Of a stretch of DNA of 64,000 nucleotides, positions 2,472 to 64,000 are shown piece after piece (position 1 is the first letter of the stretch; each line of letters starts with the position of its first letter). The translations under genes and the position numbers were made by a program. This stretch comes from Candidatus Gastranaerophilales bacterium. Lineage in GTDB: Bacteria; Cyanobacteriota; Vampirovibrionia; Gastranaerophilales; Gastranaerophilaceae. The DNA is taken from contig CANRGC010000004.1 of the NCBI GenBank assembly GCA_947630045.1, positions 1-64,000 on the forward strand. Reading direction: 5' to 3'. The notes beneath the pieces are model-generated. The model saw only the letters and a list, made by a program, of their open reading frames with translations. It was not told where the DNA came from and did no database searches.

Positions 2472-2519
2472 CAGGAAAATTAAATAAAGATTGACAAAAA
2501 TATAATTTACATGTTTTAT

Positions 2520-4172
2520 ATGAAAGTTGTGAAAATCGATGGAATAAAAAATTTATCAAGTTTTAAAGGTGCAACCATTAATATAAATGCGCTGTCGGAT
2601 ACTCACGGACATGTTGAGCTTTCAGACAAAGCTTTTGAGGCAATGGCTTCATGTAAAGATGATATTTTTATAAAAAATGACGGAAAGAAAAGCGCTGCAA
2701 ATTATTTTATTGTTGGCGGAGATTGGTTTATATCAGCCGACATAAAAGGTTTTTTAACAAGCCCTAAAACCCCTCTCGGCGATTTTCAAACAAAAATGTT
2801 AAACAAAATGACAGATTGCATAAAAACGTTATGTCCTTCGGTAAAACCGATTTTTGTCCCCGGAAATCACGACTTAGATTGCGGCGGGGATGTTTTTCAT
2901 AATTGCGCAAAAAATATGAACTCCAAAATTATTGTAACAAATTTAGATTTTGAAAATTCACCTTCCGTAAAAGATTTGATTGACGAAGATAAAATTGTAA
3001 AATCTCAAATTGATTTTATACAGGATGATAAAGATAAAAATAAAACTCACCCCGTTTTAAATCTTGGCGTTTCGCCCGTAAACCTTTCATATTACGTTGC
3101 AGACAGCGGCGTTAAAATGGTTGAAGATAAAAAAATTCCGCAAAAGTTTGTGGCTCAGGAACACTTTAAAAAGACATTTGATGAAGTTCAAACACAGGTT
3201 CAAAATTTCAAGAAAAAATATCCAAACGGAAAAGTTATTCTTACTTGCCACACGGGAGCAAATTTTGCCGATTACTGCGCAAAAAATTATCTGGCAGATA
3301 TCATTTTTGACGGGCATGAGCACAAAGATGAAGTCAGGTTTGTAAACAATATACCGATTATTGGGCTTTCACAAAATTTTAAAAAAATTGTAAATGCCAA
3401 ATTAAGTTTGGATGATGACGGAAAACTTAAAGAAATAAAAATACAAAATATAAAACCGGAAGAAGAACCGGAAAAGTCAGGCGAATTAGATAAATATTAC
3501 AAAGAACTTTTCAGAAAAGATTCAAAGAAAATATTTAATATTCAATGCGAAGGAGCAAAAAAACTTGATATTGAAGGAATAAGAAGCAAAAATAACCACC
3601 TTGCAAATTTTCTTTGTGATTCTCTTTTGAGCGAAATAAAAGAATATGACCCTTCAGTCCAAATTTTTGCGCTCTGCGCCTCTGCCATGAGAGGAAGTTT
3701 TAAAGTTTCAAAACAGCCTTCAATTTCAATGTTTGATGTAATGAACGCCTTAAACGGAATAAGCAAAAAACAAAGCAGGGTTTTTGTAAGTGAAGTTAAG
3801 GGTTCTGAGCTTGCAACAATGGTTGGGGACAATTTTTTGTTTAACTCAATAGACACGGAAAAAAATCCCATTATTCACTATTCGGGAATTAAAGTGAATA
3901 AAACGGAATTTGTTAAAGGCGCTCTTATGGGGCAAAAGGAAGACGAGCTTTGTAAATATATAACTTTTGAAGAAACAAACGAGCCTGTTGACCCCGACAA
4001 GACATATAAAATTGCAAACCCCGAAAAATATTTTATCAAGACAACAAACCCAAAAATAAAGGGTATTTATCAAAAATCATACCCTTTAGATATTAATATA
4101 AGAGATTTATTGCCTCAATATTTTATGAAACATAACTCCATAAAAACAGAAGCAAAAGAAAGATTTTATTAA
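2520..4172 (+). CDS. 5'-nucleotidase/UshA-like metallophosphoesterase without signal peptide
   Basis: Two-domain 5'-nucleotidase-type hydrolase. The N-terminal calcineurin-like domain shows the metal-binding series DTHGH, GGDW, GNHD, TCHTGAN and GHEH. The C-terminal half (from about residue 320) looks like the 5'-nucleotidase substrate domain, with [10 protein letters not shown] near its end. Family members are usually exported, yet no Sec signal or lipobox is present; instead the protein begins with a short segment containing LSSFKGA (see findings). Start uncertain: ATG at 2511, ATG at 2520 or GTG at 2529. TATAAT at 2501-2506 would put the transcript start near 2513, favouring 2520. The gene overlaps the end of convergent glgC by 4 bases. 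Confidence 0.8.
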
Positions 4173-31058: not shown

Positions 31059-31628
31059 TTATTTTGAAATTTTTCTCAGCCCTTTTACCTTAACCTCTTT
31101 CGGCTCTTTGGCGTCAGACTGATCAATAATGCCTGACCATCTGACATAATCGGCATCGCTCATTTTGGGTCTTATCGCCTGTAAAAGACGTTTTGTGTCT
31201 TTTTTTGAAAGTTTCGGATTGTTCCAATTTGCTTCAAAAAGTTCTTTCTCGGCATCTACAAATGAACTGTATGCTTCAGGATTTCTTGCAGCAAGCTTTG
31301 ACAAATAGACTTGTGTTTGACGGTTTAGCGCTTGATTTTTGATAAATAAAGCGTCTACATAATCAATTCCGCTTGTTCCATGTTGAACCATAGAGTCTGC
31401 AACCGTTTGAACTTGTTCTTTTTTGATACCTTTTTTCTTAACCGGAACTTTTGATTCGGCAAACTTTAAAAATTCAGGTTTTATAACTGTATGTTTTGAA
31501 TAAAATTTGTCGTTGTTATATTCGTTGAAATCTCCGGCGCCGGCAGCTTCCGCAAGACGTTTTCCCTCTCTTGAAAATTTTGCCATACCGAAAGAAACAT
31601 TACTGATCGGAGAAACAGATAAACTCAT
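31059..31628 (-). CDS. Hypothetical protein with N-terminal SFG segment
   Basis: Unrecognised 189-residue protein. Begins MSLSVSPISNVSFGMAKF, then a basic, helix-rich body (KVPVKKKGIKKEQ; KRLLQAIRPKMSDADYVRW). No signal peptide, no membrane segment. AAAGGTAAG lies before the ATG. The opening matches the pattern seen in other orphans of this window (I-S-N-V-S-F-G versus I-S-K-I-S-F-A at 34.6 kb). Confidence 0.72.
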   Translation of the reverse strand: MSLSVSPISNVSFGMAKFSREGKRLAEAAGAGDFNEYNNDKFYSKHTVIKPEFLKFAESKVPVKKKGIKKEQVQTVADSMVQHGTSGIDYVDALFIKNQALNRQTQVYLSKLAARNPEAYSSFVDAEKELFEANWNNPKLSKKDTKRLLQAIRPKMSDADYVRWSGIIDQSDAKEPKEVKVKGLRKISK

Positions 31629-33586: not shown

Positions 33587-34609
33587 TTACGCTTTTGAAA
33601 CGTATAAAACATTATTGTCGTCATCGAAAAAAATCTTGTAATCGAAGTGATATTCAACATCAAAGTTATCCAACATTGCTACGTAGTTTTTAGAGTAATG
33701 ATCTAAAACTGCGGGGCTGTCATCTGTCGGAAAAACATAAAATTGTTCTATGTTTGTTCTGCCGTGATGTTCTTCAATATTTCTTGCCGCAGAGGTAAGC
33801 TTACCCGTTTTGCTATCGAAAAAATATTTCATTTTAGACACCCTTACGCCGTTTGAGCGATTGCTGTCGACACTTACAAGAATGGGTTTTCCTTTTTTAT
33901 TAAATAAAAAGGTTTTGTCAAATTCCAAATCATATCCGAAACGTTCCCACTCTTCCTGCAAATCTTCGTGCATGTCTTCCTGCATGGTAAAGTTTTTAGC
34001 ATATGTAATTAAGCCGCCGTTTCTGTCGAATGAATAAACTTTTCTTGCCATCATTTTGTCTTCGGCAAGATAAGAAACATCTCTGCCATATACAAGCCCT
34101 CGGGAACCTTTTACTATTACATCTTTATTGCCATGTTCACCGTAAAGATATATTCTGTTGACGCCGCTGTCTTCGTCTTCAAATTTAGTTTCTTTTACGC
34201 ATCTTTCATTCTCGTCAAACTCTCTTATTCTTCTGTCTCTGGATTTTGTTACTTTTAGTTTTCCGTCAGGATAATATAAAACATTTGTGTGTTCCGCACG
34301 AAGTTCTTTTGCAAGTTTTATTGAATCGCTATAAATATTCTTTATTTTTTTATAAATCGGGCCGGCGGATTCAATAATGTTCTTACCTTCGTCAATAATA
34401 TTTTGTCCTTCTTTTGCAAGTATTCTTCCTTTTTTAACTGCATTTCTTCCTATAAGTTCGGCACGATAGTTGCGCGGATAAACATATCTTCCCGTGTCCG
34501 ACTCTTTTTCCGAGTTCTTTTCTCCCGTGAAAGAAGGTTGTTTTTTAGGGGCAGCATACATATTTCTTGAAACAGGCGCAGCGAAGGAAATTTTGCTTAT
34601 AGAAACCAT
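33587..34609 (-). CDS. Hypothetical protein with two SF-type N-terminal segments
   Basis: Unrecognised, 340 residues. N-terminus MVSISKISFAAP, then a second tag-like segment KKQPSFTGEK, then a basic helical region and a beta-rich C-terminal half (KVYSFDRNGGLITYAKN, KTFLFNKKGKPILV, KYFFDSKTGKLTSAAR) whose repeating strand-turn pattern looks like YD-type or other antiparallel repeat modules. The frame opens at a TTG (34621), but GGAGAAAA is the ribosome site of ATG 34609. No signal peptide. Confidence 0.72.
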   Translation of the reverse strand: MVSISKISFAAPVSRNMYAAPKKQPSFTGEKNSEKESDTGRYVYPRNYRAELIGRNAVKKGRILAKEGQNIIDEGKNIIESAGPIYKKIKNIYSDSIKLAKELRAEHTNVLYYPDGKLKVTKSRDRRIREFDENERCVKETKFEDEDSGVNRIYLYGEHGNKDVIVKGSRGLVYGRDVSYLAEDKMMARKVYSFDRNGGLITYAKNFTMQEDMHEDLQEEWERFGYDLEFDKTFLFNKKGKPILVSVDSNRSNGVRVSKMKYFFDSKTGKLTSAARNIEEHHGRTNIEQFYVFPTDDSPAVLDHYSKNYVAMLDNFDVEYHFDYKIFFDDDNNVLYVSKA

Positions 34610-34762
34610 TTTTTTCTCCAAATAGTAAATCTCTCGTCATAGTAAAACATGAAATAAAAAATTTTTGCAAACTTCTTTTCATACTTTACATTTCTTATAA
34701 AACGGGAAAAAGAAAGATTTTGTAATTATAATGTTAAGTACTGTTAAACAAAGGAAAAAAAG

Positions 34763-60564: not shown

Positions 60565-61832
60565 AAAAACTTTTTTTATATTTTTATTCAATTTTATCTT
60601 CAATTTTATCGCTCGTTATTTTGCCTTTAATTTGGCTTATAAGAATTATTCAAAAAAAGGATGTTTCAAGCTGGAAAATTAAACTCGGAAACTTTAATTT
60701 GCCCGATAATTTTGATAAAACCAAAAAAACAATTATGATTCACGGTGTTTCCGTGGGCGAGGTTGTTTCATTGGAAAAATTGGTAAGAAAAATTAAGGAA
60801 AATTTTCCAAATTATAACCTTGTTTTAACAACGGGTACAAAAACGGGGCAAGAAACCGCAATTAAAAAAATGTCCGATACTGCGGATTTTATAACCTATT
60901 TTCCTATAGACATTCCTTTTTGCGTTAATTCTTTTCTGAAAAAAATAAAACCCGACGTTGTTTTAATCGCAGAAACCGAAATTTGGCCCGTATTTGCATT
61001 TTCTTGTAAAAATAAAAAAATTCCTCTTTTTATAATTAACGGCAGAATGAGCGAAAATTCTTTCGGGTCATACAAACTTTTAAGCCCGTTTTTCAGGTGT
61101 GTTCTTCCTCTTTACACGGGAATTTACACCCAGAGCGAAATTGATAAAGAAAGGCTTCTTAAAGTCGGAGCAAACAAAGACACTCTTGAAGTTATGAAAA
61201 ATTTAAAGTTTGATGTCAGCAAATTTAATGTCGATATGGATATAAAGCCTCAAGGTTCAAAAGTTTTGATTGCAGGAAGCACCCATAAAGGCGAAGATGA
61301 AATTGTTTTAAAGGTTTATAAAAAACTCAAAGAAACTGAAAATGTAAAGCTTCTTTTAGCGCCAAGACACGTCACAAGGACGGAAGATGTTGAAAATTTG
61401 CTTAAAAGTGCGGCTCTTTCATACAATCTGTATGACAAAGCGCCTTATTTTGAAGAAAAAGACGTGCTTTTATTAAATGTAACGGGTGAACTTGCAAAGC
61501 TCTATGCGCTTTCTGACGTTGCGTTTATTGGCGGAAGTTTCAACCAAACGGGGGGTCATAACCCGCTTGAAGCCATAATTTTTGATAAGCCCGTCATTTC
61601 AGGGCCTTCAATTAAAAACTTTACGGATATATACTCTATTTTAACGAATGCAAAAGCGGCTTTTGTTGTGCAAAATGACGAAGAGTTTTATAATATTGCT
61701 CAAAAACTCTTTGCGGATGAGAAATTTTATGAAACAATTTCAAAAAACGCTCTGGGCGTCTTTACAAGCCAGCAAGGAGCTCTTGAATTTGTTATTGATA
61801 AATTGAGAAAGGTTTTTATAAATGAAAATTAA
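60561..61832 (+). CDS. waaA: 3-deoxy-D-manno-octulosonic acid (Kdo) transferase
   Basis: Adds Kdo to lipid A. One N-terminal membrane helix, then GVSVGEVVSLEKL, TTGTKTGQETA, AETEIWPVF and NGRMSENSFGSY, with GGHNPLEAI near the end. Length 423 fits. Overlaps the upstream gene by 4 bases and the next by 11. Confidence 0.96.
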   Translation: MKKLFLYFYSILSSILSLVILPLIWLIRIIQKKDVSSWKIKLGNFNLPDNFDKTKKTIMIHGVSVGEVVSLEKLVRKIKENFPNYNLVLTTGTKTGQETAIKKMSDTADFITYFPIDIPFCVNSFLKKIKPDVVLIAETEIWPVFAFSCKNKKIPLFIINGRMSENSFGSYKLLSPFFRCVLPLYTGIYTQSEIDKERLLKVGANKDTLEVMKNLKFDVSKFNVDMDIKPQGSKVLIAGSTHKGEDEIVLKVYKKLKETENVKLLLAPRHVTRTEDVENLLKSAALSYNLYDKAPYFEEKDVLLLNVTGELAKLYALSDVAFIGGSFNQTGGHNPLEAIIFDKPVISGPSIKNFTDIYSILTNAKAAFVVQNDEEFYNIAQKLFADEKFYETISKNALGVFTSQQGALEFVIDKLRKVFINEN

Positions 61833-62307
61833 AGTTTTATTAACATTATTGGTTTTATCCGTTGTGCTTAAGGCGAATGCCGATGTGGCTTTCACTCTGC
61901 CGGCTGATTTTTTAACTCAGGTTTCAAAAGGGGTTCAATTTAAAACCGATTTAAACTTTATTGAAAGACTTCTTGTTAATCAAACCGTTAAAAACACTTC
62001 AATAGACGGAATTAAGCTTAACGATTACAAACCGGAAACTCTTTTGAAATATTTCAATCAAGACAGCACTTTTAAACAAATTGCCCCGAACAAACTTGTT
62101 GAACCAAGAACGGGGGCAACTCTTGAATTTAACTCCGACAATATGTGTGACGGCAAAAATTGCACCATTACCGTAGATTTAAACGGAGAAAAAGGCCCGA
62201 ACCAAAACTGGACGGAATTTGCAAACCCGAAAGACAGAATAATCTTAATAATTAAAAAAACAGGGGACGGCGGACTTGACGTGCAGTTTCCCGAATTTAA
62301 CAACTAA
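61822..62307 (+). CDS. Secreted protein with pilin-type DxNG motif
   Basis: Ordinary Sec signal peptide (MKIKVLLTLLVLSVVLKANA), no prepilin G-FTLAE site. The C-terminal half has CDGKNCTITVDLNGEKGPNQNW, closely matching the D-x-N-G-x-K-x-P-N region of the two pilins in this window. So it looks like a pilin-like C-terminal domain without the pilin helix, translated with waaA. Function unknown; an envelope or assembly role is inferred. Confidence 0.72.
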   Translation: MKIKVLLTLLVLSVVLKANADVAFTLPADFLTQVSKGVQFKTDLNFIERLLVNQTVKNTSIDGIKLNDYKPETLLKYFNQDSTFKQIAPNKLVEPRTGATLEFNSDNMCDGKNCTITVDLNGEKGPNQNWTEFANPKDRIILIIKKTGDGGLDVQFPEFNN

Positions 62308-62406
62308 GAGTTTTTAAACTTTGTAAATTTTTTTATAAAAACTGTTAAAAAATTTTGTTTTGATGTTTTCAAGCAACAAAAGACACGGTTTTAACAGGAT
62401 ATCAAT

Positions 62407-64000
62407 GCGAATAAATCCTATAAATTACGAATTTAAAAATAATAAATATAAACAAACTCAAGAAAACACCGCCCCTTTGTCTTTTACCTCGCACAGAGTT
62501 ACTTCAAAAGACTTGGACAATGTCGTTTCTATGATAAAAAAATATGATTCTTCAAGGCTGGACGGCACTTTTCAGAAGTTTTATCAATATAGTGATTATA
62601 TGGTAAAAGCGCCTGATTTGTCTGCAAGCGGAACGCCAATTAAAGAATTTTATGCGCTTTCAAGACTTGAACAATCTAAAATAGGCAGCGGAATAGCCCC
62701 AAAAAATGCGGTTCTGTCAAGAATGGGGAACAGATATTTTCTTGTTGAAGAATTTGTTAACGGCAAAAGGCTTTCTACCCTTCCAAGCAATATGGAACAT
62801 ACTGATGACATATTAAAATCTCTTTTTTCAATGGATGTTTCAGGGGTGGTAAATCACGATTTATCTCCCATAAACATTTTAATCGGCAAAGACAATCTGC
62901 CGAGAGTTACAAACTTTGACACTTACAGTTTCATTGCAAATGACGGAAAAATCATACAGTCTGCTTCAACACCAAGCATATATTACCTGACAAAAACGCC
63001 TGTTGCCAAATTTGCGCAAACAGGCAGGCTTGACATTGATTCCATGCCCGCAGAAAAGGGGTTTAAAGAAATTTTCGCAGACAGTTTTTATCTGAAAAGA
63101 AAACGCCCGCATTCCATACATGATTTAATGTATGTAAGAGATTTATCCGAAAACCCTTATATTGGCTTGCCTTCAAACTTGGCAAGTTTTGAGTCAAGAA
63201 CTTTATATAAACAAATAATGAACGGAGATGTCGAAAACCCCGCAGATTTTTTGTGTGATTACATACAAAAAAAGGCAAATACATATCATACCAAAATGAG
63301 AGATTACCTAAAAACGCTTGATATAAAGGAAGATAGCGCAGGAAGCGCCCTTAAACTTTCAGGTGAACAAGCAAAAACAAAACTTCAAAATGCGATTAAA
63401 TATGAAGATTTTCTTATAAACCTTTTTGGAAGCAAAAAGCCTGACCCTTACTTTGGAAAGCTTGAAGCCGCAAAAATTCAGTTAAATGCGCTTTTGTATC
63501 ACAACGATTTAGACAAAGAAGTTCCAAATTCGCTAAGATTGCCCGCAGCATATCGCAAACTTATGAAAGTAATAAGAGAGGGTCTTGGGGTTTATGACGA
63601 ACCTGAATATAAGACATATCTTGAAAGCGAACTTAAAAGATATAAAAATATTTACGCAAGAACAGGAATAGGGCAAACAAATATCCAACAGATAATTCCA
63701 AAAGACCTTGATATTATAGAAAGCAAATTTAAGGGAATTATGGCAAAAGGCACAGGCAAACATTTAAATGATTTTTTAAACAGACTGGAGCCCAACTTAA
63801 AAGATAAAGAAGAAATTGTAACTGAAATGGTTTTTTCCGGCGACGGAATTGAAGGAAAAATTAATCATCTGGGCAAAACAAGCCAACACAAAGTATACAG
63901 AATTAAATCTCGCACCACTTTAAAGAAAGGCTTTGAAAAAACAATTGAAAAAGTTAAAACTCAAGCCAAAGGAGTGATTGAAAAAGTTGAAGAAAAAGAC
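62407..64000 (+). CDS. Large kinase-like orphan protein, 3' end beyond window
   Basis: Open from ATG 62407 (AACAGGA upstream) to the window edge, at least 531 codons. N-terminus MRINPINYEFKNNKYK and, near residue 26, PLSFTSHR. Residues about 85-175 have kinase-like order: a hinge-like YFLVEEFVNGKRL, then NHDLSPINILI (H151, D152, N157), the catalytic loop pattern HxDxxxxN, and VTNFDTYSF where a DFG or DFD would be expected, with Asn170 in place of the first Asp. The rest is helical with a Lys/Glu-rich end. Active kinase, atypical kinase or pseudokinase cannot be decided. Confidence 0.72.

Follow-up and report, generated by a model that had tools for sequence, protein, structure and literature searches.

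The Locus

The window, i.e., the whole 64,000-nucleotide stretch of DNA considered here, comes from the Gastranaerophilales, which are non-photosynthetic gut relatives of cyanobacteria, and it closes on a gene for a kinase-like protein whose reading frame is open up to the last base. The original prediction had this frame running off the window, as it does, with the stop 234 bases past the window end, at 64234; the start that it gave, 62407, is two bases off, the ATG being at 62405, and an in-frame TTG is found at 62360. On the 5' side lie waaC-like and waaA-like genes, and then a gene for a small protein whose start is signal-like. This order of waaC, waaA, small protein, and kinase is repeated in five genomes, in which gene-order comparison places an ortholog of the window gene at the same locus. 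Synteny and sequence both agree, and for this reason these five relatives are regarded as orthologs; the window protein shares 35–37% identity with those of its own genus and 31% with the fifth. Neither frameshifts nor stops occur inside the window gene, and the completeness and contamination of the assembly are 99.8% and 0.65%, respectively. The features of the locus are given below, with residue conservation counted over 75 distinct family members, the window protein included.

61822..62307 (+), small protein with a signal-like N-terminus, upstream of the kinase-like gene and separate from it, syntenic with the kinase across the genus
62405..64000 (+), window part of the kinase-like gene (full gene 62405-64234 of contig C4, 608 amino acids)
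62477..62494 (+), N-terminal tag LSFTSH, residues 25-30; Phe27 aligned in 70/75 relatives
62597..62614 (+), beta-3 strand YMVKAP with the ATP-binding Lys68, residues 65-70; Lys in 65/75, Arg in 8/75
62642..62650 (+), KEF with the alpha-C Glu81, residues 80-82; invariant in 75/75
62735..62767 (+), hinge-like YFLVEEFVNGK, residues 111-121; Gly120 invariant in a 12-sequence alignment
62852..62881 (+), catalytic loop NHDLSPINIL, residues 150-159; Asp152 and Asn157 conserved, Asn150 at the HRD His position
62912..62920 (+), NFD replacing DFG/DFD, residues 170-172; Asn170 at the metal-binding Asp, which is Asp in 72/75 members
63152..63694 (+), family-specific C-terminal helical domain, about residues 250-430, with NPxxxxxSNxxxFE, Tyr286, and Lys290

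Relationship to Protein Kinases

Taken alone, the window protein gives only sub-threshold matches in Pfam and NCBIfam, several of them to kinases (RIO1, E 0.08; the MAD6 kinase; LanKC). Against the PDB, the profile of the six orthologs, i.e., the window protein and its five counterparts, reaches a best E of 1.4e-5 from the hinge to the activation segment, with the best 60 structures all kinases, and the profile of 74 family members reaches E 2e-16, spanning the N-lobe and the catalytic loop. Pfam Pkinase is matched by 55 of the 74 members, its curated cut-off is exceeded by four of eight members tested, and the orthologs L020 and L021 pass the cut-off of Pfam RIO1. In profile comparisons, the window protein aligns with the DFG-bearing subfamily over residues 59-410 (E 7e-27) and with the canonical HRD/DFG subfamily at E 1.2e-5, or 8.9e-12 when the six orthologs are taken together. 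Judged by these searches against PDB, Pfam, and the subfamilies, the window protein is homologous to protein kinases, as had been proposed, with the link for this protein alone passing only via intermediates.

Structure prediction was attempted with AlphaFold on six-row alignments for the window protein and for ortholog L020, and gave mean pLDDT values of 49 and 51, respectively; the kinase half lies mostly below 50, and the helices of the C-terminal domain reach about 75–90. Fold searches with these low-confidence six-sequence models returned no convincing kinase match. PADLOC matches to PD-T4-6 and mad6 were set aside as indications of a defense function because they reflect general kinase similarity.

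Among known enzymes, the family resembles Hanks-type kinases (PF00069 Pkinase; StkP, CDPK, and TTK in the PDB) in its Gly loop, present in most members, its VAIK Lys, alpha-C Glu, hinge, catalytic Asp and Asn, and DFG Asp, and in the order of these elements, besides the profile E value of 2e-16 given above. It differs from them in that the similarity ends at the activation segment and is followed by the family-specific helical domain, and the window copy differs further in lacking the DFG Asp and the HRD His. The RIO kinases (PF01163) share the DLSxxN catalytic loop and a reduced C-lobe, and two orthologs exceed their cut-off, whereas the window protein stays below it; moreover, the ribosome-biogenesis context is absent, and the tag, transmembrane tail, and C-terminal domain of the family are foreign to RIO.

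A Lineage-Specific Family

The window protein was originally called an orphan, a label that has to be dropped: the protein family is distributed mainly in Gastranaerophilaceae, 117 of the 383 genomes sampled from the organism's own taxonomic family contain it, the relatives found in named records come from 'Candidatus Gastranaerophilales' metagenome-assembled genomes, and a second member is encoded in the same genome (C6:4098-5132). This paralog has a full catalytic set (IK, E, HGDLNMNN, DFG), and a joint action of the two proteins is conceivable, a suggestion based on their co-occurrence. Viral contigs searched with five subfamily queries contained no relatives, hence nothing points to phages as carriers of the family. 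In the literature searched, we found no account of this family, or of relatives of kinases from this lineage of gut bacteria, and the family appears to be large, lineage-specific, and so far undescribed.

Regarding the architecture, the kinase profile matches end after the activation segment, which is shortened, and no recognizable APE or alpha-F to alpha-I region follows. Instead, there are about 180 residues with invariant N258, E263, and Y286, which belong to no Pfam family; their comparison with solved structures gave nothing significant (no relative at E < 0.1, best E 0.11). A search of 240 genomes of the class with this C-terminal domain as the only query found it in 36, of which 34 belong to the same taxonomic family. 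It may be a C-lobe that has diverged, or else a domain of its own. A transmembrane segment follows it, with Lys-rich residues behind, in roughly half of the family, the window protein and most of its orthologs among them. Several partial copies of the domain lie close together on single contigs (C16 and C3 of genome G053; C15 of genome G016), suggesting local expansion of the family.

Neighboring Genes and HAD-Type Phosphatases

A tagged gene for a HAD-type phosphatase adjoins 35 of the 75 family kinase genes, in divergent orientation at 22 loci, upstream on the same strand at 11, and downstream at two. The HAD proteins have the invariant residues DxDxT, TGR, Lys, and GDxxND, and give weak Pfam matches to sugar-phosphate and Cof-type phosphatases; their profile found nothing in the PDB at E 0.01, so the assignment rests on these motifs and Pfam matches. 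A search for the protein in the 117 genomes found about 31 genes. Comparing the coordinates from this search and from that for the kinases, we count a family kinase gene at a distance of up to 1 kb for 18 of them and of up to 5 kb for three more, and 15 of the best 16 matches are among those near kinase genes. At two loci, L012 (1-1248, then 1252 onward) and L069 (667-1908, then 1912 onward), HAD and kinase share one frame with a single stop codon between them. Since the orientations differ among loci, these data argue for a functional link between the two proteins rather than for one arrangement that was inherited.

This arrangement recalls the Stk/Stp pairs of Gram-positive bacteria, in which a kinase gene also lies beside a phosphatase gene. 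Unlike those pairs, the phosphatase of this family is HAD-type and tagged, not PP2C, and the window gene has no phosphatase neighbor, no family HAD having been found in its own genome.

The nature of the HAD neighbors also bears on what the kinases act upon. The family might phosphorylate small molecules, or other substrates that are not proteins, in the manner of APH, RIO, ABC1, or choline-kinase-like enzymes, with the activity of the window protein changed or lost. The weak sugar-phosphate and Cof-type matches of the HAD proteins would agree with this, as would the scattered matches of the kinases to RIO1, APH, ABC1, and Kdo kinase models, and the helical domain that apparently stands in place of a eukaryotic-type C-lobe. 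However, the matches to Pkinase are both the best and the most frequent, and we hold this alternative as a tentative one, somewhat on the unlikely side.

At the locus of the window gene itself, the five orthologs have a different neighbor, i.e., a divergent, tagged gene of 219–247 amino acids without Pfam assignment, which lies beside the kinase as follows:

L019:3125-3823, minus strand
L020:3113-3853, minus strand
L021:2721-3425, minus strand
L022:3130-3828, minus strand
L023:3281-3937, minus strand

This gene was found neither in the window, nor in the rest of the organism's genome, nor in three members of the genus that lack the kinase. The copy without the metal Asp is thus also the copy without the partner gene of its orthologs, which is suggestive, even though it amounts to a single event.

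The Active Site and the Loss of the Metal-Binding Aspartate

The segment HDLSPINIL had been proposed as a kinase-type catalytic loop preceded by a hinge-like segment, and both motifs are present. Asp152 is kept in 74 of the 75 family members, and Asn157 and Asp144 in all 75; the conservation of Asp152 and Asn157, together with that of Glu81, Lys68, and the DFG Asp across the 75 relatives, argues against a motif arisen by chance. The expected active-site trio of H151, D152, and N157 was right in the numbering of the latter two residues, while H151, which directly precedes D152, corresponds to the Arg of HRD and not to its His. The His position is occupied by Asn150 in all six orthologs, window protein included, and being common to all of them this residue has no diagnostic value for inactivity.

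The NFD reported at the DFG position is indeed there, as TNFD at residues 169-172. An Asp at the first position is found in 72 of the 75 family members, the three exceptions being the window protein and the sister genes L065 and L068. The five orthologs all read DFD, hence Asn170 is confined to the window copy within its clade.

Bacterial pseudokinases are recognized in sequence by the loss of at least one of three residues, namely the beta-3 Lys, the HRD Asp, and the DFG Asp (PMC12599244). The window protein has lost the last of these, with Lys68, Glu81, Asp152, and Asn157 kept, and it is probably catalytically silent because the residue that holds the metal ion is gone. As far as can be judged from its sequence, we consider it somewhat probable that the window protein is a membrane-tethered pseudokinase, or a strongly impaired kinase, derived from an otherwise active kinase family. 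The protein would consist of a short tag, a kinase N-lobe with the catalytic loop, the helical C-terminal domain, and a transmembrane helix tethering it to the membrane. With Asn170, Mg-ATP would not be positioned normally and little or no phosphotransfer would be expected, and the persistence of the Lys68-Glu81 pair, Asp152, and Asn157 may still allow a nucleotide to bind. Its role might then be that of a non-catalytic partner, such as a scaffold, decoy, or allosteric regulator, for whatever the catalytically complete relatives act on. Several points stand against a pseudokinase: the predicted structures are of low confidence (mean pLDDT 49 and 51), Asn170 occurs in one sequence of one assembly, most of the key residues are intact with D172 close by, leaving activity possible, and the loss of the neighboring gene is one event.

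The main rival explanation is that the kinase is active and its metal site altered, with Asp172, or Asn170 itself, taking over the coordination of the metal. The original prediction had left room for such an unusual arrangement alongside a pseudokinase; of the two, the pseudokinase is the better reading, given that Asn is found only here and the five orthologs read DFD, and the other is possible, with D172 adjacent and conserved in the clade. Beyond the retained Lys68, Glu81, Asp152, and Asn157, an altered site is favored by D172 being invariant across the six orthologs, in a position where Asp, Glu, or Gln is common in the family, and by the lack of extra acceleration in the window protein. 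Nevertheless, all five orthologs have Asp170 and Asp172 together. Asp172 was therefore already present in the ancestor of the clade and did not appear as a replacement when Asp170 was lost, and in those proteins it replaces nothing. The other Asn170 members, moreover, have lost further catalytic features together with their similarity to kinase profiles. All in all, an active enzyme of this kind appears quite unlikely.

The rate of evolution was compared with that of the neighboring genes. In the window genome, the identity to orthologs is 29.6–34% for the kinase versus 65–71% for waaC and waaA, and the Asp-bearing ortholog of genome G005 gives a like contrast, 29–34% versus 68–70%. The whole clade evolves fast, and the window copy is not conspicuously faster than the Asp-bearing ortholog. 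Because the gene is not simply decaying, a protein that is kept, and is non-catalytic or weakly catalytic, is our best guess.

Real degeneration does occur in the family. L065 and L068 form a sister clade that reads NFG at the DFG position, L065 also has HNL with the catalytic Asp lost, and neither of the two matches any kinase model. On the tree, Asn at position 170 requires at least two independent changes, one in the window protein and one in L065/L068, and the latter pair may be viewed as another pseudokinase lineage of separate origin.

Were Asn170 an error of sequencing or assembly, or a variant of the strain, the window protein would be an ordinary active member of the family. A single assembly stands behind Asn170, and the change from GAC to AAC is one base. 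This explanation is highly improbable, considering that the gene has no frameshift or stop, that the assembly has the completeness and low contamination given above, and that the absence of the neighboring gene suggests a real change at the locus.

Pseudokinase families already described in bacteria include ActPs1-3, DLHK, GLW, CP1, and DYD, all of which have lost at least one of the three catalytic residues; some of these families (GLW) have a C-terminal transmembrane region, and CP1 is reported in cyanobacteria (PMC12599244). Compared with them by description only, the window protein differs in losing the metal Asp alone, with the Lys and the catalytic Asp kept, and in belonging to a family whose members are mostly catalytically complete.

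The N-Terminal Tag and the Possible Role of the Family

The N-terminal SFTS noted in the window protein as a tag belongs to a motif, [SN]F[GKTL][GSAN], that is found in 46 of 75 family N-termini versus a mean of 4.2 and a maximum of 8 in shuffles, and for this reason it is considered a true feature of the kinase family. Over about 477 kb of the organism's own genome, the strict motif is not enriched in N-termini (7/392 versus 1.3% of control segments), so a genome-wide tagged set is not proven by a simple pattern.

One explanation of the tag is that it serves as a secretion or sorting signal, and that these fast-evolving kinases are effectors exported by the cell, or factors associated with its surface. 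The frequency of the tag in the family points in this direction, as do the kinase identity, about half that of the neighboring housekeeping genes, and the Lys-rich tail behind the C-terminal transmembrane helix in many members. Conversely, the window protein has no classical signal peptide and the strict motif is not enriched in the 477 kb of its genome that were sampled, and we think export unlikely.

A broader scheme, which we also rate as unlikely, is a lineage-specific system of reversible phosphorylation in Gastranaerophilaceae, made of tagged, membrane-tethered kinases, many of them beside tagged HAD phosphatases, that the tag would target to a common place; the window pseudokinase would have lost its partner gene and would regulate non-catalytically. 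On present evidence, the novelty lies in a lineage-specific family inside the kinase superfamily, one member of which has degenerated, and does not extend to a new type of system. The family and its pairing with a phosphatase, which is undescribed in the literature searched, look more interesting than the single window gene: being widespread, fast-evolving, tagged, and often HAD-paired, with a helical domain that has no solved relatives, the family offers a handle on the function of the tag and on the targets of phosphorylation in these bacteria. The window copy and its Asp-bearing orthologs at the same locus, for their part, provide a clean natural comparison for asking if a kinase that lacks the DFG Asp can still function or be retained.

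Tag-like N-termini are also seen in three other proteins of the window, encoded at 2511-4172 (metallophosphoesterase/5'-nucleotidase-like, SSFKGA), 31059-31628 (SNVSFGMA), and 33587-34621 (QPSFTGEK), none of which has a classical signal peptide. In addition, a phosphofructokinase-like protein with the tag-like VSFGEK in an N-terminal extension (L115:5377-7053, contig C6 of G000) is encoded next to the kinase paralog of the same genome.
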